Source: a bacterium (GTDB taxonomy: Bacteria; JAMCPX01). From it: a stretch of 58,103 bases of DNA. The stretch covers positions 1 through 58,103 of the forward strand of contig JAJYLN010000016.1 in the NCBI GenBank assembly GCA_021787665.1, given 5' to 3'. Under the pieces are notes generated by a model. That model saw only the letters and a program-made list of their open reading frames with translations, made no database searches and had not been told where the DNA came from. The position numbers were made by a program, and so were the translations under genes. Shown piece after piece: positions 14,613 through 53,783 of this stretch. Position 1 is the first letter of the stretch, and each line of letters starts with the position of its first letter.

Positions 14613-14686
14613 AAAAAAAAGCAAAAAAAAGTCAAAAAAAAGGTCAAAAAAAAGATCTTGACAAGCGCATCCCTGTTTGGTACGTT
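14613..14686 (+). promoter_or_regulatory. Phased A-tracts and promoter of the surface-protein cluster
   Basis: Four runs of exactly eight A start at 14613, 14623, 14634 and 14646, spaced 10, 11 and 12 bp, close to one helical turn, which predicts intrinsic bending. Four bases later comes TTGACA (14658-14663), a 17-bp spacer and TACGTT (14681-14686). The A-tracts can also act as an UP element for RNA polymerase. The leader to the ATG at 14796 would be about 100 nt and includes AAGGAGG. Confidence 0.6.
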
Positions 14687-14795
14687 TACATCAAAGCCAG
14701 TTTATGTTTGAACAATTAAAGGCGAAAGCCTTTGCAGATAGATGAATTACGGAATCAGTACAGAGGGAAGAATAAAAAACTTAAGGAGGTTAAGT

Positions 14796-17636
14796 ATGAA
14801 GGTCAAAAGGGGCATTAAACTCTTGGTTGCGGCTGCGGTTGCGTTCGCAGGGGTTGCAATCCTTGGTAATGCTAAAAATTCCTATGCAGCTCTCCCGGAG
14901 GTTGACAGCTATACGTTCCAGGTGAGTGTTACGAATAGTATGCTGACATACCTCGACACGCAGGTGTACAACATCCTGACGTCGCCTACCGTCACGACGA
15001 TGATCCAGAGCCTGATCACCAACGCATTTACGGACGGGACCACGGGCGCACCGAAGGCACTGGTAGACACCTGTCTCAGCATTCCCCTCGTGGGAATGAC
15101 GTGTATTGCTGTCTATATCGAGGACTTCGATAATGACGGCGTCGTCTTTACGTACACGGTACCGTCCAACGGCATCGTACTTGCAGCGACCCCGGGAGGC
15201 GCCTATGTGAACGCGCCCCGCGGCACACTCTCGGTTGGCATTAACCTCGCCAACGTGAAGCTCGATGTCTCGCTGTACACAGGTACGGCGTATACACAGA
15301 CGGCGGGCGCAACGGTGACCGACTATGTGCTTGCTTCTGGTCAGGCGATGGTACCGAACATCTCCCTGGCCCTCGATATGGCGGTCATCGGAGGTAATTT
15401 ATCGACCTACGATCCGACCGAGGCGAACCCGATTACATGGCCGACCCTCCACGGAAACCCGCCCAACCCCATGCCGGGCACAGAGGTCGGTATCCGGGTG
15501 GTCGGTGCTGATATCGGCGTCGGCTTCCATTTCGGTCTAACGCCTTCAGCTACCACCGGGCTGGTAAACGAGGGGCTCTGCACCTCGGCGTATGCTTCCG
15601 GCTGTCCGAACGTGCTCGTGAACGACGGAAGTGAATGTTATAAGTCGTGTCTGGTGTCGTCCCTTATCCCGTACATCGATGCGCAGTTCAACATCCATGC
15701 GGCAGATAACTTCAATGCAGCGCTCGAGTACTACCTCGGACCGACCATGCTCCTCGATGCTGCAACACTGTTGACATCCACGATCACGGACCCGCTGACC
15801 GGCGGTGGGATCAGTATCAATGCTGGCTTCTTCTGGGACTTTACCGCGACCAGCAATGGCTTCAATCTCTACCCAGGCGGTCTCGGGCTTGCCTTGTCAT
15901 ACACCCTCGGTACCTGCGTTACGCAGCCCGTGGGCGCAAAGCCTATCACTGATACCGTAAGTCTGGCACCCTATCTTCTCGGTGCGACGACGCCGAACGG
16001 CCAGCCCTACATGCTCGGGCTCCTGATACACGAGAACCCCCTGTCTGAGCTGCTGTACAATGTCTACACGGACGGTATCCTGTGTATGGACTTAAACAAC
16101 AATACGCCGATGATTGGCTCGCTCCTCGGTACCCTCTTCTCGACGAGTATATTCGGTCTGCTCTTTACGCCGCTCAATACGTACTATCCGAACAGGCCCA
16201 TGCAGATAGAGGTGGTACCGACGCTGGTAAATCCGGCATCGCTTACCTTCAACAATAATATCGATACCCCGTACATTGAGACCGGGGCAGATATAACGAC
16301 CTCGAACCCGGCATTGACGTTCCCGACGACCACCGTCGGGCCTGCAGGGACGAACGGATCGCTCGTCGTGGGCATTCCGCACCTGCTCCTTAACTTCGAC
16401 GTCGATACGACCGGGACGGGCACGTACAACAGGGTGTTCGGCCTTGACCTTGGCCTCACGGCGGGTATCGGTATATCCGTATGGACCGATCCGACGCTGC
16501 CGACATGGGGCACCGGGAGCCCGACAGGAAGAGTAATAAGGATATTGATGGGGGACACTCCCACGGTCAATTCGTATATTCCTTATTCAGCGGCCATCCC
16601 TGCTACCGTTACCGGTATGGCGCACATCCTCGGCGAAGTTCTGCCGACGATTCTGACAGCGGCCATCAACGGCAGACTCGACCTTGCGATAGATATCTAT
16701 CCGCTCCTCGGCATTACCTTTACGGTTCCGTATATCGGAACGACTGGACCTCTGGATGCGAGAGGCCTTCCGAGTAATCTGGGTGCGTTTGTAGGACTGG
16801 AGTACAACCTGGATCCGGGACTCGTGTTTTCGCTCCTGGACACGCTGGGTCTGTCTCTGACCTCCCTTACCAGCGGCTTGAAACTGGACGCGCCGCAGTT
16901 GAGTGGCGTGCAGCTCGGTATGCCGTACCCTGTAGTATATGCGAACGTGGGAGACGTCAGCGGATCGAACATCGTCCTCAACGCGAAGCAGACGAGGGAG
17001 GCAGGAATGACTGCTTACTCGTCCGTCATAGACCTCTCTTCGTACGAGGCGAACGGACAGAACCCGGGCATCGCCTACAGCTACAGTCTTGACAACGGCC
17101 CGTGGAGCTTCCTGAGTCCGTCAGGCCAGATCGCCCTGAGCGACCTGTACGAGGGCAAGCACACGATCGAAGTGCAGGCAGTCGACTCCAATATGGTGAT
17201 GTCTGCCAACACCGCAAAAGTCAGCTTCGACATTGACTCGGTACCGCCGACACTCTCTGTGGCGGGTCCGCAGGGTGTCGTGAACGGGAGCAGCGCGACC
17301 TATGTCGTCGACGCCTCGGACGCACAGACACCGGCTGATCAGATAACGGTGTCGTACAAGCTCGACAATAAGTCGTGGAGCATACCGACGACCGATAAGG
17401 ATATCACCCTGAGCGGGTTGACTTCCGGAAGTCACACGGTCGAGATACGCGCATTCGATCTTGCCGGCAATGCAAGTCAGGTAACGGCAAACCTGAATAT
17501 CGCGAATGGTGTGAAGGCAGGGTTCTTCGGCTGTTCGACTGCGGACAGCGGGAACGCCGGTATACCGGCCATGCTGATCATACTGCTTGCTCCGCTCGCG
17601 TTCGTGATTGTACTGAAGAGAAAGACTGTTAGATAG
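14796..17636 (+). CDS. Large exported surface protein A (possible BPI-like/TULIP fold, Ig-like domains, C-terminal anchor)
   Basis: 946 aa from ATG at 14796, preceded by AAGGAGG; an in-frame ATG at 14742 lacks a site. Signal peptide of about 31 residues ending NSYA. The body (about 32-720) is hydrophobic and beta-rich with amphipathic helices (VSVTNSMLTYLDTQVYNIL; LSELLYNVYTDGILCMDL; HILGEVLPTILTAAI) in the order seen in the two barrels of BPI-like lipid-binding proteins; this fold call is inference. Two Ig-like repeats follow (about 745-905, each with a SLDNGPW/KLDNKSW strand and DSVPPTLSV between). The tail has Cys in GFFGCSTADSG, one membrane helix, and LKRKTVR, resembling MYXO-CTERM sorting tails. 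Full-length paralog of the protein at 20366-23848. A strong terminator follows. Confidence 0.8.
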   Translation: MKVKRGIKLLVAAAVAFAGVAILGNAKNSYAALPEVDSYTFQVSVTNSMLTYLDTQVYNILTSPTVTTMIQSLITNAFTDGTTGAPKALVDTCLSIPLVGMTCIAVYIEDFDNDGVVFTYTVPSNGIVLAATPGGAYVNAPRGTLSVGINLANVKLDVSLYTGTAYTQTAGATVTDYVLASGQAMVPNISLALDMAVIGGNLSTYDPTEANPITWPTLHGNPPNPMPGTEVGIRVVGADIGVGFHFGLTPSATTGLVNEGLCTSAYASGCPNVLVNDGSECYKSCLVSSLIPYIDAQFNIHAADNFNAALEYYLGPTMLLDAATLLTSTITDPLTGGGISINAGFFWDFTATSNGFNLYPGGLGLALSYTLGTCVTQPVGAKPITDTVSLAPYLLGATTPNGQPYMLGLLIHENPLSELLYNVYTDGILCMDLNNNTPMIGSLLGTLFSTSIFGLLFTPLNTYYPNRPMQIEVVPTLVNPASLTFNNNIDTPYIETGADITTSNPALTFPTTTVGPAGTNGSLVVGIPHLLLNFDVDTTGTGTYNRVFGLDLGLTAGIGISVWTDPTLPTWGTGSPTGRVIRILMGDTPTVNSYIPYSAAIPATVTGMAHILGEVLPTILTAAINGRLDLAIDIYPLLGITFTVPYIGTTGPLDARGLPSNLGAFVGLEYNLDPGLVFSLLDTLGLSLTSLTSGLKLDAPQLSGVQLGMPYPVVYANVGDVSGSNIVLNAKQTREAGMTAYSSVIDLSSYEANGQNPGIAYSYSLDNGPWSFLSPSGQIALSDLYEGKHTIEVQAVDSNMVMSANTAKVSFDIDSVPPTLSVAGPQGVVNGSSATYVVDASDAQTPADQITVSYKLDNKSWSIPTTDKDITLSGLTSGSHTVEIRAFDLAGNASQVTANLNIANGVKAGFFGCSTADSGNAGIPAMLIILLAPLAFVIVLKRKTVR

Positions 17637-48003: not shown

Positions 48004-50463
48004 ATGGCTGAAGAAGTAGAAATAAAACAGACGAACGAGCAGTCCCAGGAAAAGCTCAAGATACCGTCGGAGCTGCCGCTTGTCCCGATACGGGACATTG
48101 TGCTCTTCCCGAACATGATCCTTCCTCTCTTCGTGGGGAGGGAGGCGTCCATCTCCGCGATAGACTTCGCGCTTACGAAGGAGCGGCTCGTCGCCTTCTC
48201 GGTGCAGAAGGACATGAACGAAGAGGCCCCGGCGCCGGACGGCATATTCCCTATCGGCACGGTGGGCTCCATTACCAGAATGCTCAAGTTGCCTGACGGA
48301 AGGGTCAAGATACTCATCCAGGGCCTGTCCAGGATACGCATAAAGGAGTACAAGCAGATCCAGCCGTTCTTCTCCGTTTCCGTAGACATCATCCAGGACG
48401 ATCCGGTCAGCGAGACCGTGGAGGTGCAGGCACTCACGAGGACGGTAAAAGAGCAGGTCGAGAAGGTTGTCTCGATGGGCAAGGCGATACAGCCGGACGC
48501 GCTCATCCTGATAGAGAACATAGGCGACGCGGGCAAGATAGCCGACATCATCGTGACAAACTACGGCCTGAAGACCGTTGACCTCCAGGCGTTCCTCGAG
48601 ATCGTAGACCCGGTCGAGCGGCTCAAAAAGGTCATCGACATGCAGAACAAGGAGATCGAGCTCCTGACCGTGCAGGCCAAGATACAATCCCAGGCGAGAG
48701 AGGAGATGGGCAAGGTCCAGAGGGAATACTTCCTGCGGGAGCAGTTGAAGGCCATCAAGGGCGAGCTCGGAGAGATAGACGAGAAAGAGAAAGACATCCA
48801 GGACTTCAAGAACAAGATAAAGAAGTCCAACATGCCCAGGGAGGTAGAGGAAGAGGCGAACAGCCAGCTCAACAGGCTCGAGATGATGCACCCGGACTCC
48901 GCAGAGGCATCGATCGTGCGGACGTACCTCGAATGGCTCGTGGACATCCCCTGGACGAAGCAGACGAAGGAGAATATCGATATCAACCATGCGCGGAAAG
49001 TCCTCGACGAGGACCACTATGATCTCGAGAAGGTCAAGGATCGCATCCTCGAGTACCTCTCCGTCAGGAGGCTGAAGCAGAAAATTAAAGGACCGATCCT
49101 GTGCTTTGTCGGCCCCCCCGGCGTGGGCAAGACGTCGTTGGGCAGGTCGATCGCGCGGGCCCTGAACAGAAAGTTCGTGAGGATGTCTCTCGGCGGCATA
49201 CGGGACGAGGCCGAGATACGGGGACACCGGAGGACATACATCGGCGCGATGCCGGGCAGGATCATCCAGGGCATCAAGCAGGCAGGCACGAATAACCCGG
49301 TATTCATGCTCGACGAGATCGACAAGGTGGGCACGGACTTCAGGGGCGATCCCTCGTCCGCGCTTCTCGAGGTGCTCGACCCGGAGCAGAATTATACCTT
49401 CTCAGACAACTATCTGAACGTGCCCTATGACCTCAGCAACGTCCTCTTCATAACGACCGCCAACGTCATGGACCCCATACCGCCCGCCCTGCGGGACAGG
49501 ATGGAGGTCATTACCCTGTCAGGTTACACCGACGAGGAGAAGCTCCGCATCGCGAAGAAATTCATCGTACCGAGGCAGGAGGAGGAGACCGGCGTCGGAA
49601 AGGACAAGGTGTCCTTCGATGACGAGGCCCTGCTCTTCATCACCAACAGCTACACGAGGGAGGCCGGGCTGAGGAACCTCGAGAGGGAGGTCTCGTCCGT
49701 CTTCAGGAAAATCGCCCAGAAGATCGCGGAGGGCGAGAAGCCGCCGTTCAAGGTCACCAGAGACCTCGTCAGGAAGTTCCTCGGTGTGCCCAAGACGGCC
49801 CCGGAAGAGCTGATGACGAAAGACGAGGTCGGCATAGCGACCGGGCTGGCGTGGACGCCCTATGGAGGGGACGTGCTCTACATAGAGGTCACGACCATGA
49901 AGGGCAAGGGCAGACTGACCCTCACGGGCCAGCTCGGGGACGTCATGAAGGAATCGGCGATGGCGGCGGTGAGCTATCTCAGGGCGAACGCGGGCAAGCT
50001 TGGTATGGACGCCTCCAGGTTCGATACGCTCGATATTCACATTCATATTCCTGCAGGAGCCATCCCCAAGGATGGTCCCTCGGCCGGCATCACGATGGCC
50101 GTAGCGACCGCGTCGGCGCTGACCGGCGAAAAAGTGAGAAAAGACTTTGCGATGACCGGAGAGATTACCCTCAGGGGCAACGTCCTCCCCATCGGGGGGC
50201 TCAAGGAAAAGTCACTCGCCGCGCTCAGGGCAAAGATATACAAAGTCATCATACCGGAGGCCAATAAGCCGGATCTCGAAGAGTTGCCGGACTATATCAA
50301 GGAAAAGATCGAGTTTATTCCGGTCACCCACATCAGGGAAGTCCTGTCACAACTGCTCGTCAACGGTACTGCGGATGTCAAGAGGACAAGGGGCAGGCGC
50401 AACGATAGTGAAAGGTTGGGAAGAGCTAAAGCTGATACAAGGCATACGCGCTCGCGCCGGTAG
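48004..50463 (+). CDS. lon: ATP-dependent protease Lon
   Basis: 819 aa. N-domain (LPLVPIRDIVLFPNMILPL), Walker A GPPGVGKT near residue 370, Walker B VFMLDEIDKVG, sensor region and the protease domain with Ser in KDGPSAGITM (about 689) and Lys in GGLKEKSLAAL (about 734). Full length. The C-terminus carries an extra basic, low-complexity tail of about 30 residues after LSQLLVNG that overlaps thiL by 56 nt; normal Lon ends near there. Confidence 0.97.
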   Translation: MAEEVEIKQTNEQSQEKLKIPSELPLVPIRDIVLFPNMILPLFVGREASISAIDFALTKERLVAFSVQKDMNEEAPAPDGIFPIGTVGSITRMLKLPDGRVKILIQGLSRIRIKEYKQIQPFFSVSVDIIQDDPVSETVEVQALTRTVKEQVEKVVSMGKAIQPDALILIENIGDAGKIADIIVTNYGLKTVDLQAFLEIVDPVERLKKVIDMQNKEIELLTVQAKIQSQAREEMGKVQREYFLREQLKAIKGELGEIDEKEKDIQDFKNKIKKSNMPREVEEEANSQLNRLEMMHPDSAEASIVRTYLEWLVDIPWTKQTKENIDINHARKVLDEDHYDLEKVKDRILEYLSVRRLKQKIKGPILCFVGPPGVGKTSLGRSIARALNRKFVRMSLGGIRDEAEIRGHRRTYIGAMPGRIIQGIKQAGTNNPVFMLDEIDKVGTDFRGDPSSALLEVLDPEQNYTFSDNYLNVPYDLSNVLFITTANVMDPIPPALRDRMEVITLSGYTDEEKLRIAKKFIVPRQEEETGVGKDKVSFDDEALLFITNSYTREAGLRNLEREVSSVFRKIAQKIAEGEKPPFKVTRDLVRKFLGVPKTAPEELMTKDEVGIATGLAWTPYGGDVLYIEVTTMKGKGRLTLTGQLGDVMKESAMAAVSYLRANAGKLGMDASRFDTLDIHIHIPAGAIPKDGPSAGITMAVATASALTGEKVRKDFAMTGEITLRGNVLPIGGLKEKSLAALRAKIYKVIIPEANKPDLEELPDYIKEKIEFIPVTHIREVLSQLLVNGTADVKRTRGRRNDSERLGRAKADTRHTRSRR

Positions 50464-51382
50464 TGCCGGGCACGGAGTGCTGCTCGGTATCGGCGACGAT
50501 ACCGCTGTGGTAAAGACACCGGCGGGCGGTAGGCTACTCTGCACGGTCGACAGCATCGTCGACGGCGTCCACTTCCTCGGCGATCTCAACAGATGGGACT
50601 CTGCCGGCAGGAGGGCGCTCGGCGCAGCAGTCAGCGACATCGCCGCCATGGGGGGGGTGCCGCTCTACGTGATGCTCTCCCTGTTCCTGCCGGGCGGTTT
50701 CCCGGCGCGGCGCGTCGACAGGTTCATGGACGGCTTTATGTCACGTGCGCGCGAGTACGGGATACGTCTCATCGGAGGCAACATCGCGGCCACACACGGC
50801 AGCTTTGCAGCGGACACCGTCATCATAGGGAAAGCCTACCGGGGCAGGTTCGTCAGGAGGAGCGGGGCCCGGGAGGGCGATGCGATCTGCATCGCGGGCA
50901 CGACCGGCGAAGCCATGGCCGGACTGGATCTGATTCGGCTGAAGGACACCAGGTCGTACCCCGTGCTGATCAGAAGGTACCTCGAGCCTTCCCCGATGCT
51001 GAACGAGGGCACCCGCATCGTTGACACGGTAGCTCCGACCTCGATGATAGATGTATCGGACGGGCTGCTGCAGGATCTGTCCCATATACTCGAAGAGAGC
51101 GGGAGGGGCGCACGGATAGATCTCGACCGTGTGCCAGTAACGGAGGGTGTGAAATACGCAGCTAGGCTGCTCGGGAAATCGCCCTATGCTTATGTTTTGA
51201 CAGGCGGTGACGACTATGTTCTACTCTTTACCGTTCCGGCGGAAAGGTACAGGAGGAGGATTAGCGGCACCGAGATATACCGTATCGGAGAGATCGTAAA
51301 GCGCAGCGGCATCGCGTTCTACGAGTACGGCAGGAAGGTGTCCCTGAATCTTGATACGACCGGGTACGTGCATCAGGGTTAG
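50408..51382 (+). CDS. thiL: Thiamine-monophosphate kinase
   Basis: 324 aa from GTG at 50408 (VKGWEELKLIQGI); ATG at 50375 gives 335 aa but overlaps lon by 89 nt. ThiL signatures: GIGDDTAVV, AVSDIAAMGGVPLYVMLS and GGNIAATHG. It phosphorylates thiamine monophosphate to the diphosphate. No other thi gene is present. The start is the uncertain part because lon and thiL share up to 89 nt in different frames and the ribosome site is weak. Confidence 0.9.
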   Translation: MKGWEELKLIQGIRARAGSAGHGVLLGIGDDTAVVKTPAGGRLLCTVDSIVDGVHFLGDLNRWDSAGRRALGAAVSDIAAMGGVPLYVMLSLFLPGGFPARRVDRFMDGFMSRAREYGIRLIGGNIAATHGSFAADTVIIGKAYRGRFVRRSGAREGDAICIAGTTGEAMAGLDLIRLKDTRSYPVLIRRYLEPSPMLNEGTRIVDTVAPTSMIDVSDGLLQDLSHILEESGRGARIDLDRVPVTEGVKYAARLLGKSPYAYVLTGGDDYVLLFTVPAERYRRRISGTEIYRIGEIVKRSGIAFYEYGRKVSLNLDTTGYVHQG

Positions 51383-51393
51383 GCAGGGGGACC

Positions 51394-51804
51394 ATGATGG
51401 AGAAGGACAAGCTCAGAAAGCTGCTGACCGAGGTGCAGGAGGGTACGCGGGGAGTGGACGATGCGGTCAGGATAATGAGGCACCTGCCCTTCATCGACAT
51501 CGGCTTTGCAAAGTACGATACCCATCGGTCCCTCAGACAAGGCTTCCCGGAAGTCATCTTCGGACAGGGAAAGACGGACACACAGATAGTGAAGCTGTGC
51601 AGGGTTGCCCGGAGCACGGGTAACAGGGTGATGGTAACGCGGATCGGTGCTGCTGCGGCGCGCCGCGTGGAGCGCGCAATACCGGGGTTCAGGTATCACC
51701 GCAGTGCACGGATGCTCACCCACGGGAAAGTGAAGGAAGAGAGGAGAGGAGAGGAGAGGAATCTTGATCGTCACGGCAGGGACTACCGACATACCCGCTG
51801 CTGA
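51394..51804 (+). CDS. larB: LarB-like protein, N-terminal half (frame interrupted at an AGAGG repeat)
   Basis: 136 aa as read. LarB carboxylates and hydrolyses nicotinic acid adenine dinucleotide on the way to the nickel-pincer nucleotide cofactor of lactate racemase. This half has the family start: [30 protein letters not shown]-type sequence with [14 protein letters not shown] as its most telling motif. After [10 protein letters not shown] the frame meets four AGAGG units (51740-51759) and goes on into unrelated sequence until 51804. The C-terminal half continues in the next frame. No larA, larC or larE is in the window. Confidence 0.8.
51740..51759 (+). repeat. Pentanucleotide repeat (AGAGG)4 inside larB
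   Basis: Four perfect AGAGG units. The N-terminal frame and the C-terminal frame of larB are offset by one: adding one unit (five copies), or removing two, would bring them into one ORF, while four and three copies leave it split. The tract is also a strong Shine-Dalgarno-like sequence for the TTG at 51764. Confidence 0.8.
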
Positions 51805-52147
51805 GGAAGCGAAGGTCACAGCCCAGATGTTCGGTAATATCGTCGAAACCGCATACGACGTCGGCGTTGCCGGGCTCCAGAGGCTGCTTGCCCAGCTCGA
51901 TATGCTGACGGGCGCGCGGGTCGTGATTGTCGCAGCAGGCATGGACGGGGTGCTCCCGAGCGTTGTCGGCGGGCTCGTGGAAAGGCCGGTCATCGCGGTC
52001 CCGGTAAGCTCCGGATACGGTGCCAGCTTCAACGGCCTCTCGAGTCTCCTCACCATGCTGAACAGTTGCTCGCCCACCGTGTCCGTCGTCAACATCGATA
52101 ACGGCTTCGGCGAAGGGGTCGTAGCGTCTCTCATCAACAGGACGTAG
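51764..52147 (+). CDS. larB: LarB-like protein, C-terminal PurE-like half
   Basis: 127 aa from TTG at 51764, 4 nt after the AGAGG tract. It begins [21 protein letters not shown] and contains [15 protein letters not shown], the catalytic PurE-like domain of LarB, complete to the C-terminus ([13 protein letters not shown]). It overlaps the N-terminal ORF by 41 nt. It could be made as a separate polypeptide using the repeat as its ribosome site, or be part of a full-length protein in cells with five repeat units, or be the result of a sequencing/assembly indel. Confidence 0.8.
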
Positions 52148-52148
52148 C

Positions 52149-53783
52149 GTGGCGGGCATGGTCAGGGGCATACCGGTATCGACGGGCGACCTATCAGCGG
52201 AGGACATGCTGAGGGAGCTCTCGTTTATCTACCGACGGATGACGGGCGTGGCTTCGTACAGGGACATCCTCGGTATATTCTCGGAGTCGCTCAAGAAAAG
52301 ACTGGGCCTGTTCGAGGTGAGCATCATGATGTTCGCGGACGAGAAGAAGGACAGGATAGAGGTCCTTGCGAGCAGCGAGATCAACGATGACAGGACGGTC
52401 GTGGTGGCATTGGACAAGTACCCCGAGATACTTGCCGCTGTACGGAAGAAAGAGGCCATGATCATCGAGGACGTCATCAACAGCCCGCTGCTGGACAGCG
52501 CGCAAAAGGAGCTTATTCTCAAGAAAGATATACAATCCATGTTTATCGTACCGATACTCGACATCAACGACGTCATGGGCGTTATCTTCATTAAGGCAAG
52601 GAAGGCAATCAAGCTGTCGCCGTTCCTCCAGAGGTACTACTTCATACAGGCGAACATGCTCGCAAGCGCCGTACTGAACATAGCGAAGATGAAGGTGCTT
52701 GAGGAATCGATGAAGGAAGCCTACGAGCTCCTCACGATGAACAAAGAGTACGAGTTTCTTTTCAACAATGCTCTGGAGGGCATGCTCCTCGTGGACCGGG
52801 AAGGCAGGGCCAGGAACGTCAACGATACCTTCCTGAAGCTCACCGGCTATTCAAGGAGAGAGATTATCGGGGCGCACTACTCGATCGGCATAGCCGACAC
52901 CTCGAGCCGGCAGGCTGCAGACGCCGTCTTTGTGAAGTACCTCCAGGGTGACTTCGTGAACAAGTTCGAGCTCAACATCAAAACAAAAAACGGTACGGCG
53001 AAAGCCATCTCCGTGCGGGCGACACCCCTGCCGGGAAGAAAGGACGTCTCACTCATCTCGATACGGGACGTTACCGAGGAGAAGCTGCTCAGCAGGGAGC
53101 TCCTCAAGACGACCGACCTGCTCCTGAAGACGATCAGCAGCTCGCCGGACTCGATCATCGCCGTCGATACGAGAGGGAAGCTCCTCTTCTTCAACGAGGA
53201 GGCCGCGAGGCTCTTCGGCTATCCGCGGGAGGAGGCAATACAGCACATCCATGTCACCCAGCTCTACCCGGAGAATGTGGCCAAAGAAGTCATGAGGATG
53301 CTCCGTCAGAGCCCGACGAAGCACATCATGAACTACCCGGTCGAGGTGCGGGCGCGCAACGGAGAGCTGATCCCGGTCACCCTGTCCGGGGCCATCGTGT
53401 ACAGTGAGAAGGGAGAAGAGCAGATGACCGTGGGCTACCTTAGGGACGAGCGGGAGAAGATCAGGATGGAAAAGTCCCTCGACGAGGCTCTGTCGAAGCT
53501 GATAGACGCCGAGAAAAACGATGCAATGACCAGCCTGGCCGGTGCCGCCGCCCATAATCTGAACCAGCCCCTGTCTGCCATCCAGGGCTACTCGGAACTG
53601 CTCGTCAACAAGCTCCGCGACAAGGACCCCACGACCGTGGACTATGCGACGAAAATCATCAGCGAAGTGGCGAAGATGGCGGACATCATAAAACAGATCA
53701 GCAAGATAACCAGGTTCGAGATACGGCCGTATGCAGGGAAGGGCAGGATCGTCGAGCTCATGGAGAAGAAGACGAAGTCCTGA
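52149..53783 (+). CDS. GAF-PAS-PAS protein with HisKA domain but no ATPase domain
   Basis: 544 aa from GTG at 52149. GAF domain about 20-185, a coiled linker, PAS about 205-310 (FLFNNALEGMLLVDREGRARNVNDTF begins it), PAS about 320-435, then a DHp domain with the H-box SLAGAAAHNLNQPLSAI. The ORF ends some 50 residues after that, with no N/G1/F boxes, and none is visible in the next 150 nt in any frame. So it is either a histidine-bearing relay protein that needs a partner ATPase, or a truncated kinase. It starts 1 nt after larB. Confidence 0.85.
   Translation: MAGMVRGIPVSTGDLSAEDMLRELSFIYRRMTGVASYRDILGIFSESLKKRLGLFEVSIMMFADEKKDRIEVLASSEINDDRTVVVALDKYPEILAAVRKKEAMIIEDVINSPLLDSAQKELILKKDIQSMFIVPILDINDVMGVIFIKARKAIKLSPFLQRYYFIQANMLASAVLNIAKMKVLEESMKEAYELLTMNKEYEFLFNNALEGMLLVDREGRARNVNDTFLKLTGYSRREIIGAHYSIGIADTSSRQAADAVFVKYLQGDFVNKFELNIKTKNGTAKAISVRATPLPGRKDVSLISIRDVTEEKLLSRELLKTTDLLLKTISSSPDSIIAVDTRGKLLFFNEEAARLFGYPREEAIQHIHVTQLYPENVAKEVMRMLRQSPTKHIMNYPVEVRARNGELIPVTLSGAIVYSEKGEEQMTVGYLRDEREKIRMEKSLDEALSKLIDAEKNDAMTSLAGAAAHNLNQPLSAIQGYSELLVNKLRDKDPTTVDYATKIISEVAKMADIIKQISKITRFEIRPYAGKGRIVELMEKKTKS

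Follow-up and report, generated by a model that had tools for sequence, protein, structure and literature searches.

A larB gene split at an AGAGG repeat is probably a young frameshift amid loss of the nickel-pincer nucleotide pathway

Introduction

Several described systems resemble the split gene that we report here. In L. plantarum, larC1/larC2 is a gene of the nickel-pincer nucleotide (NPN) cofactor that lies in two reading frames, and a programmed frameshift has been reported for it. Bacterial slippage frameshift pseudogenes carry an indel at a short tandem repeat, with both halves still readable and with partner genes that are damaged or absent. The phase-variable opa genes of Neisseria have a pentanucleotide tract, CTCTT, inside the coding frame, mostly of about 8 to 13 or more units (PMC6735796). 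The enzymes LarB, LarE and LarC together make the NPN that is used by LarA, and around 15% of surveyed genomes carry larB, larE and larC without larA (PMC11796402). A genome that lacks only larA need not, therefore, have lost the function.

The gene considered here encodes LarB, the pyridinium-3,5-biscarboxylic acid mononucleotide synthase, in a bacterial genome (G000) of 2.25 Mb in 35 contigs that is 92.7% complete. It lies in a stretch of 58,103 nucleotides, hereafter the window, which is the entire contig C32. It has in common with other LarB proteins (structure 7mj0, NCBIfam family NF033503) both domains, their order, their motifs and the cysteine aligned with C221 of L. plantarum, but it occupies two frames where the LarB of relatives has one continuous frame. 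Like larC1/larC2 it is an NPN-cofactor gene in two frames, but it is a different gene, and we found no recoding signal in it. It shares with the opa genes a pentanucleotide tract inside the coding frame, but its tract has far fewer units and is not conserved, the protein has no surface function and the 469 kb of the genome that we sampled hold no other such tracts. It fits the features of slippage frameshift pseudogenes given above, except that it would be a very young one, lacking stops and having few other lesions. We argue that larB is probably an early pseudogene in a lineage that is losing the cofactor pathway.

Results

The frame of larB changes at four AGAGG units

The N-terminal half of larB extends on the forward strand from the ATG at 51394 to 51804 (frame 0), with homology to LarB up to about 51747 followed by an out-of-frame tail to the stop. 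The C-terminal half, which holds the PurE/AIRC-like catalytic domain, is in the frame shifted by +1 on the same strand; this frame opens past the stop at 51731-51733, offers its first usual start codon at TTG 51764 and ends at 52147. Reading the sequence where the two meet gives four AGAGG units at 51740-51759 (+), or 22 bp with the partial units (51739-51760). A homology-free Viterbi segmentation based on codon usage placed the switch of frame at 51761/51762. An earlier note on this DNA had claimed that larB is split exactly at the four units and that this number leaves the frame off; the sequence itself, the matches to NF033503 and the Viterbi path all agree with it.

The tract is exceptional in this genome. 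No other period-5 repeat of at least 15 bp occurs in the 469 kb of genome sequence that we sampled, in which there were also no period-4 tracts of four copies and no period-6, period-7 or period-8 tracts of three copies. Three consecutive AGAGG units do not occur again in the 2.25 Mb of the genome. Under a first-order Markov model built on the window, 0.05 period-5 tracts of at least 15 bp are expected per 58 kb, and tracts of at least 20 bp were produced in 0 of 300 trials. The tract is not a chance occurrence, and it is likely to be the cause of the frameshift. The only other notable microsatellite in the 469 kb is a (CA)11.5 tract on contig C17 (L140 7645-7667). Elsewhere in the window, four A8 runs spaced by 10-12 nt (14613-14653) form phased A-tracts, likely bent DNA, and are directly followed by a TTGACA at about 14659, upstream of an open reading frame at 14742-17633.

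A tandem tract is a weak point for assemblers and polishers, and its length rests here on a single genome assembly. The majority sequence might thus truly be in frame, or the population might be mixed, with the published contig showing one length; the split lon gene of the sister genome (see below) lends this some weight. We regard such an effect as unlikely overall, although the AGAGG tract alone might carry a consensus error or represent a minority allele. The tract of 22 bp fits well within a short read, and the switch in larB is the sole unexplained frame change that the Viterbi analysis found in the contig: the remaining same-strand frame changes resemble ordinary gene boundaries, and the other contig genes that we checked have neither internal stops nor unexplained frame changes. 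The neighboring lon and kinase genes are exactly as long as in a relative with intact larB (G002), and thiL departs from its G002 counterpart by four residues. With all these genes intact, indel errors throughout the contig are improbable. Nor would an assembly effect explain two independent lesions described below, the truncation of larC and the replacement of a histidine in LarB.

The break falls in a variable linker between the LarB domains

The N-terminal half matches positions 2-78 of the 209 positions of NF033503 and the C-terminal half positions 83-208, which puts the break in a gap of four profile positions. Both the N-terminal and the PurE-like domain of LarB therefore match the family model, but across two frames, and the C-terminal half by itself, at 192.5 bits, exceeds the cut-off of 175. 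In structure 7mj0 the two halves match residues 30-109 and 121-245, so that the break corresponds to the inter-domain linker (residues 110-120). Comparison of about 100 relatives shows that the sequence of this linker is variable and that its length differs by a few residues; the range seen in relatives is 20-25 residues between anchors. A search for a second intact larB in the source genome found none; the other weak match, on contig C28, is probably PurE.

The position of the break makes a two-part LarB worth considering, whose N and C domains would be translated as separate proteins and then come together again in an active enzyme, the AGAGG tract serving as the Shine-Dalgarno sequence for a C domain started at TTG 51764. 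Split cofactor enzymes exist, and neither half of larB has a stop. The earlier proposal that the tract would serve well as a ribosome site holds up, for the predicted duplex before TTG 51764 has an energy of -7.8 kcal/mol, better than that of most genes of the window, and the C domain may for this reason still be made. On the other hand, the two frames overlap by 41 nt instead of meeting at a tidy stop-start junction, split LarB is not established among relatives, the C-terminal half has lost an invariant residue while the gene changed at an accelerated rate on this branch, and the partners in the pathway are broken or absent (all below). We therefore think it improbable that the halves form a working enzyme.

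Full-length LarB could instead result if ribosomes underwent a programmed +1 shift at the AGG-AGA codons, comparable to the case of larC1/larC2 in L. plantarum. The required shift is indeed +1, and the shift point has a purine tract resembling a Shine-Dalgarno sequence with tandem AGG and AGA codons. Yet AGG is the commonest arginine codon here (232/512), so that there is no hungry codon at the shift site and frameshifting of that kind can be dismissed. There is also no stop codon at the site, the frame-0 stop lying about 43 nt further on, and relatives do not conserve the tract. Recoding of this sort is highly improbable.

LarB has lost an invariant histidine and changed rapidly

In PurE, the histidine of the 'SAHR' motif has a catalytic role. 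The aligned position of LarB (158 in L. plantarum) is a histidine in 103/103 other LarB proteins, and is replaced here by glutamine (CAG, 51878-51880, +). The family also has alanine near the C-terminus (99/103, with glycine in 3/103) where this protein has glutamate (GAA, 52112-52114, +), and a change of valine to alanine at 51797-51799 is likewise unusual. The cysteine aligned with the catalytic C221 of L. plantarum is retained in the C-terminal half. Identity between the N-terminal half and its nearest relatives is 55-56%, compared with 63% between those relatives themselves. The description of both halves as fully conserved is thus right in that both match LarB, but it overlooks the lost histidine and the divergence of the N-terminal half. 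Both frames are open, most conserved residues are kept, and the scarcity of other lesions and absence of stops agree with the view of the earlier note that this is not an old pseudogene.

As synonymous sites are saturated between genera, we used relative-rate counts in place of dN/dS. Unique amino-acid substitutions in G000, G002 and G004 (the latter another relative with intact larB) numbered 30, 12 and 17 in larB; the four flanking genes together had 134, 97 and 276 (Fisher p = 2e-4 when G002 and G004 are pooled). Amino-acid change in larB on the branch of G000 is about threefold over-represented relative to flanking genes; the excess of G000 over G002 alone, against the controls, is not significant (p = 0.12). 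The corresponding numbers for larE are 34, 19 and 28 (p = 0.005). Together with the loss of the invariant histidine, the excess of change points to relaxed selection on larB, though it does not prove it.

Relatives in the family have either an intact larB or none

LarB orthologs are present in 3/9 genomes of the family. In G002 and G004, larB is intact (246 and 248 residues) and occupies the slot lon-thiL-larB-kinase. The source genome has a disrupted frame at this locus, where these orthologs are intact. The flanking genes are intact in the window: thiL, for thiamine-phosphate kinase (50375-51382, +), lies upstream and is kept in relatives with and without larB, and a gene for a PAS-type sensor kinase-like protein (52149-53783, +) lies downstream. 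Both genus g3 and the sister species G001, which belongs to the genus of G000 and whose kinase is 86% identical, have no larB, and there thiL directly adjoins the kinase gene. A tree of lon, thiL and the kinase requires that larB, present in an ancestor, was lost independently two times or more. The lon of G001 (L167 6224-8664) is in two frames, probably by an indel in that draft.

The intact larB genes of G002 and G004 lack the AGAGG repeat. The earlier note held that a fixed in-frame gene without the repeat in close relatives would refute its reading, and at the level of the family this is what we found. Among 80 loci picked by the N-terminal half alone and surveyed for splits, there was one other split larB, in Geotalea toluenoxydans JCM 15764 (L092), at the same linker. 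Because the larC of that genome also looks frame-shifted, draft errors are the likely cause, and we set it aside as a second natural split LarB.

The NPN pathway appears incomplete in the source genome

The source genome has an intact larE. Its larC (L132 4579-5112, on contig C8) matches positions 1-140 of 375 of the profile and is cut at about 140-142 residues, after which about 35 unrelated residues follow in frame. The cut lies well inside a contig of 137 kb and is probably a deletion; it suggests that NPN pathway function has been lost. We did not find larA in this genome, but the assembly is 92.7% complete and may simply lack larA or a complete larC that the organism has. Within the completeness of its own assembly, the sister species G001 has no ortholog of larB, larC or larE. 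G004 retains intact larB (L135 5852-6595) and larE (L136 4623-5429), with neither larC nor larA found. In G002, LarC (L134 16727-17455) has 243 aa and matches positions 1-234 of 375 of PF01969; this is apparently the LarC1 part alone, though larA is present in that genome.

These observations bear on the proposal of the earlier note that larB is phase-variable, reversible changes in the number of AGAGG units turning LarB on and off. A pentanucleotide tract does lie within the coding frame, and the in-frame states that had been named (two or five units) would give inter-domain lengths within the range of relatives. However, the tract has four units only, the 469 kb of genome hold no set of comparable tracts, and the repeat is absent from the larB of relatives. 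The target would moreover be a cytoplasmic cofactor enzyme that lacks its invariant histidine, in a pathway broken at larC and with no larA found. We consider a switch very unlikely. With larC truncated, larA not detected and larB, larC and larE all missing from the sister species, ordinary recent decay is the better account.

Discussion

Our results are best accounted for, with reasonable but far from complete confidence, by a young frameshift produced by slippage, which has made larB an early pseudogene while the cofactor pathway is being lost. The AGAGG tract would have arisen, or changed its length, by replication slippage in the linker between the domains, where changes are tolerated. With four units, the second domain no longer lies in the frame of the first. 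The activity of LarB would thereby be lost. The lineage presumably needs the cofactor little, and the frameshift probably persists because the NPN pathway is disappearing from it. Translation of the C-terminal half perhaps still starts at the TTG that follows the purine tract, in which case the product would be a non-functional by-product.

The most interesting alternative to this young frameshift is the two-part LarB. The intact larE of the source genome, and the retention of both larB and larE in G004 where larC and larA were not found, suggest that LarB and LarE may serve some purpose by themselves, and in G004 a role of these enzymes without nickel insertion is possible. We find it doubtful, to a marked degree, that a two-domain LarB, possibly tuned by the number of AGAGG units, works with LarE in the source genome with no full LarC or LarA. 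If it did, the NPN precursor (P2CMN or its thio form) would have another use.

The split of larB is a caution against taking every reading frame that breaks at a short tandem repeat for a switch. If larB is indeed an early pseudogene, the family would offer a view of the NPN pathway being lost piece by piece, through larB, larC and larA and through the losses of the sister species.
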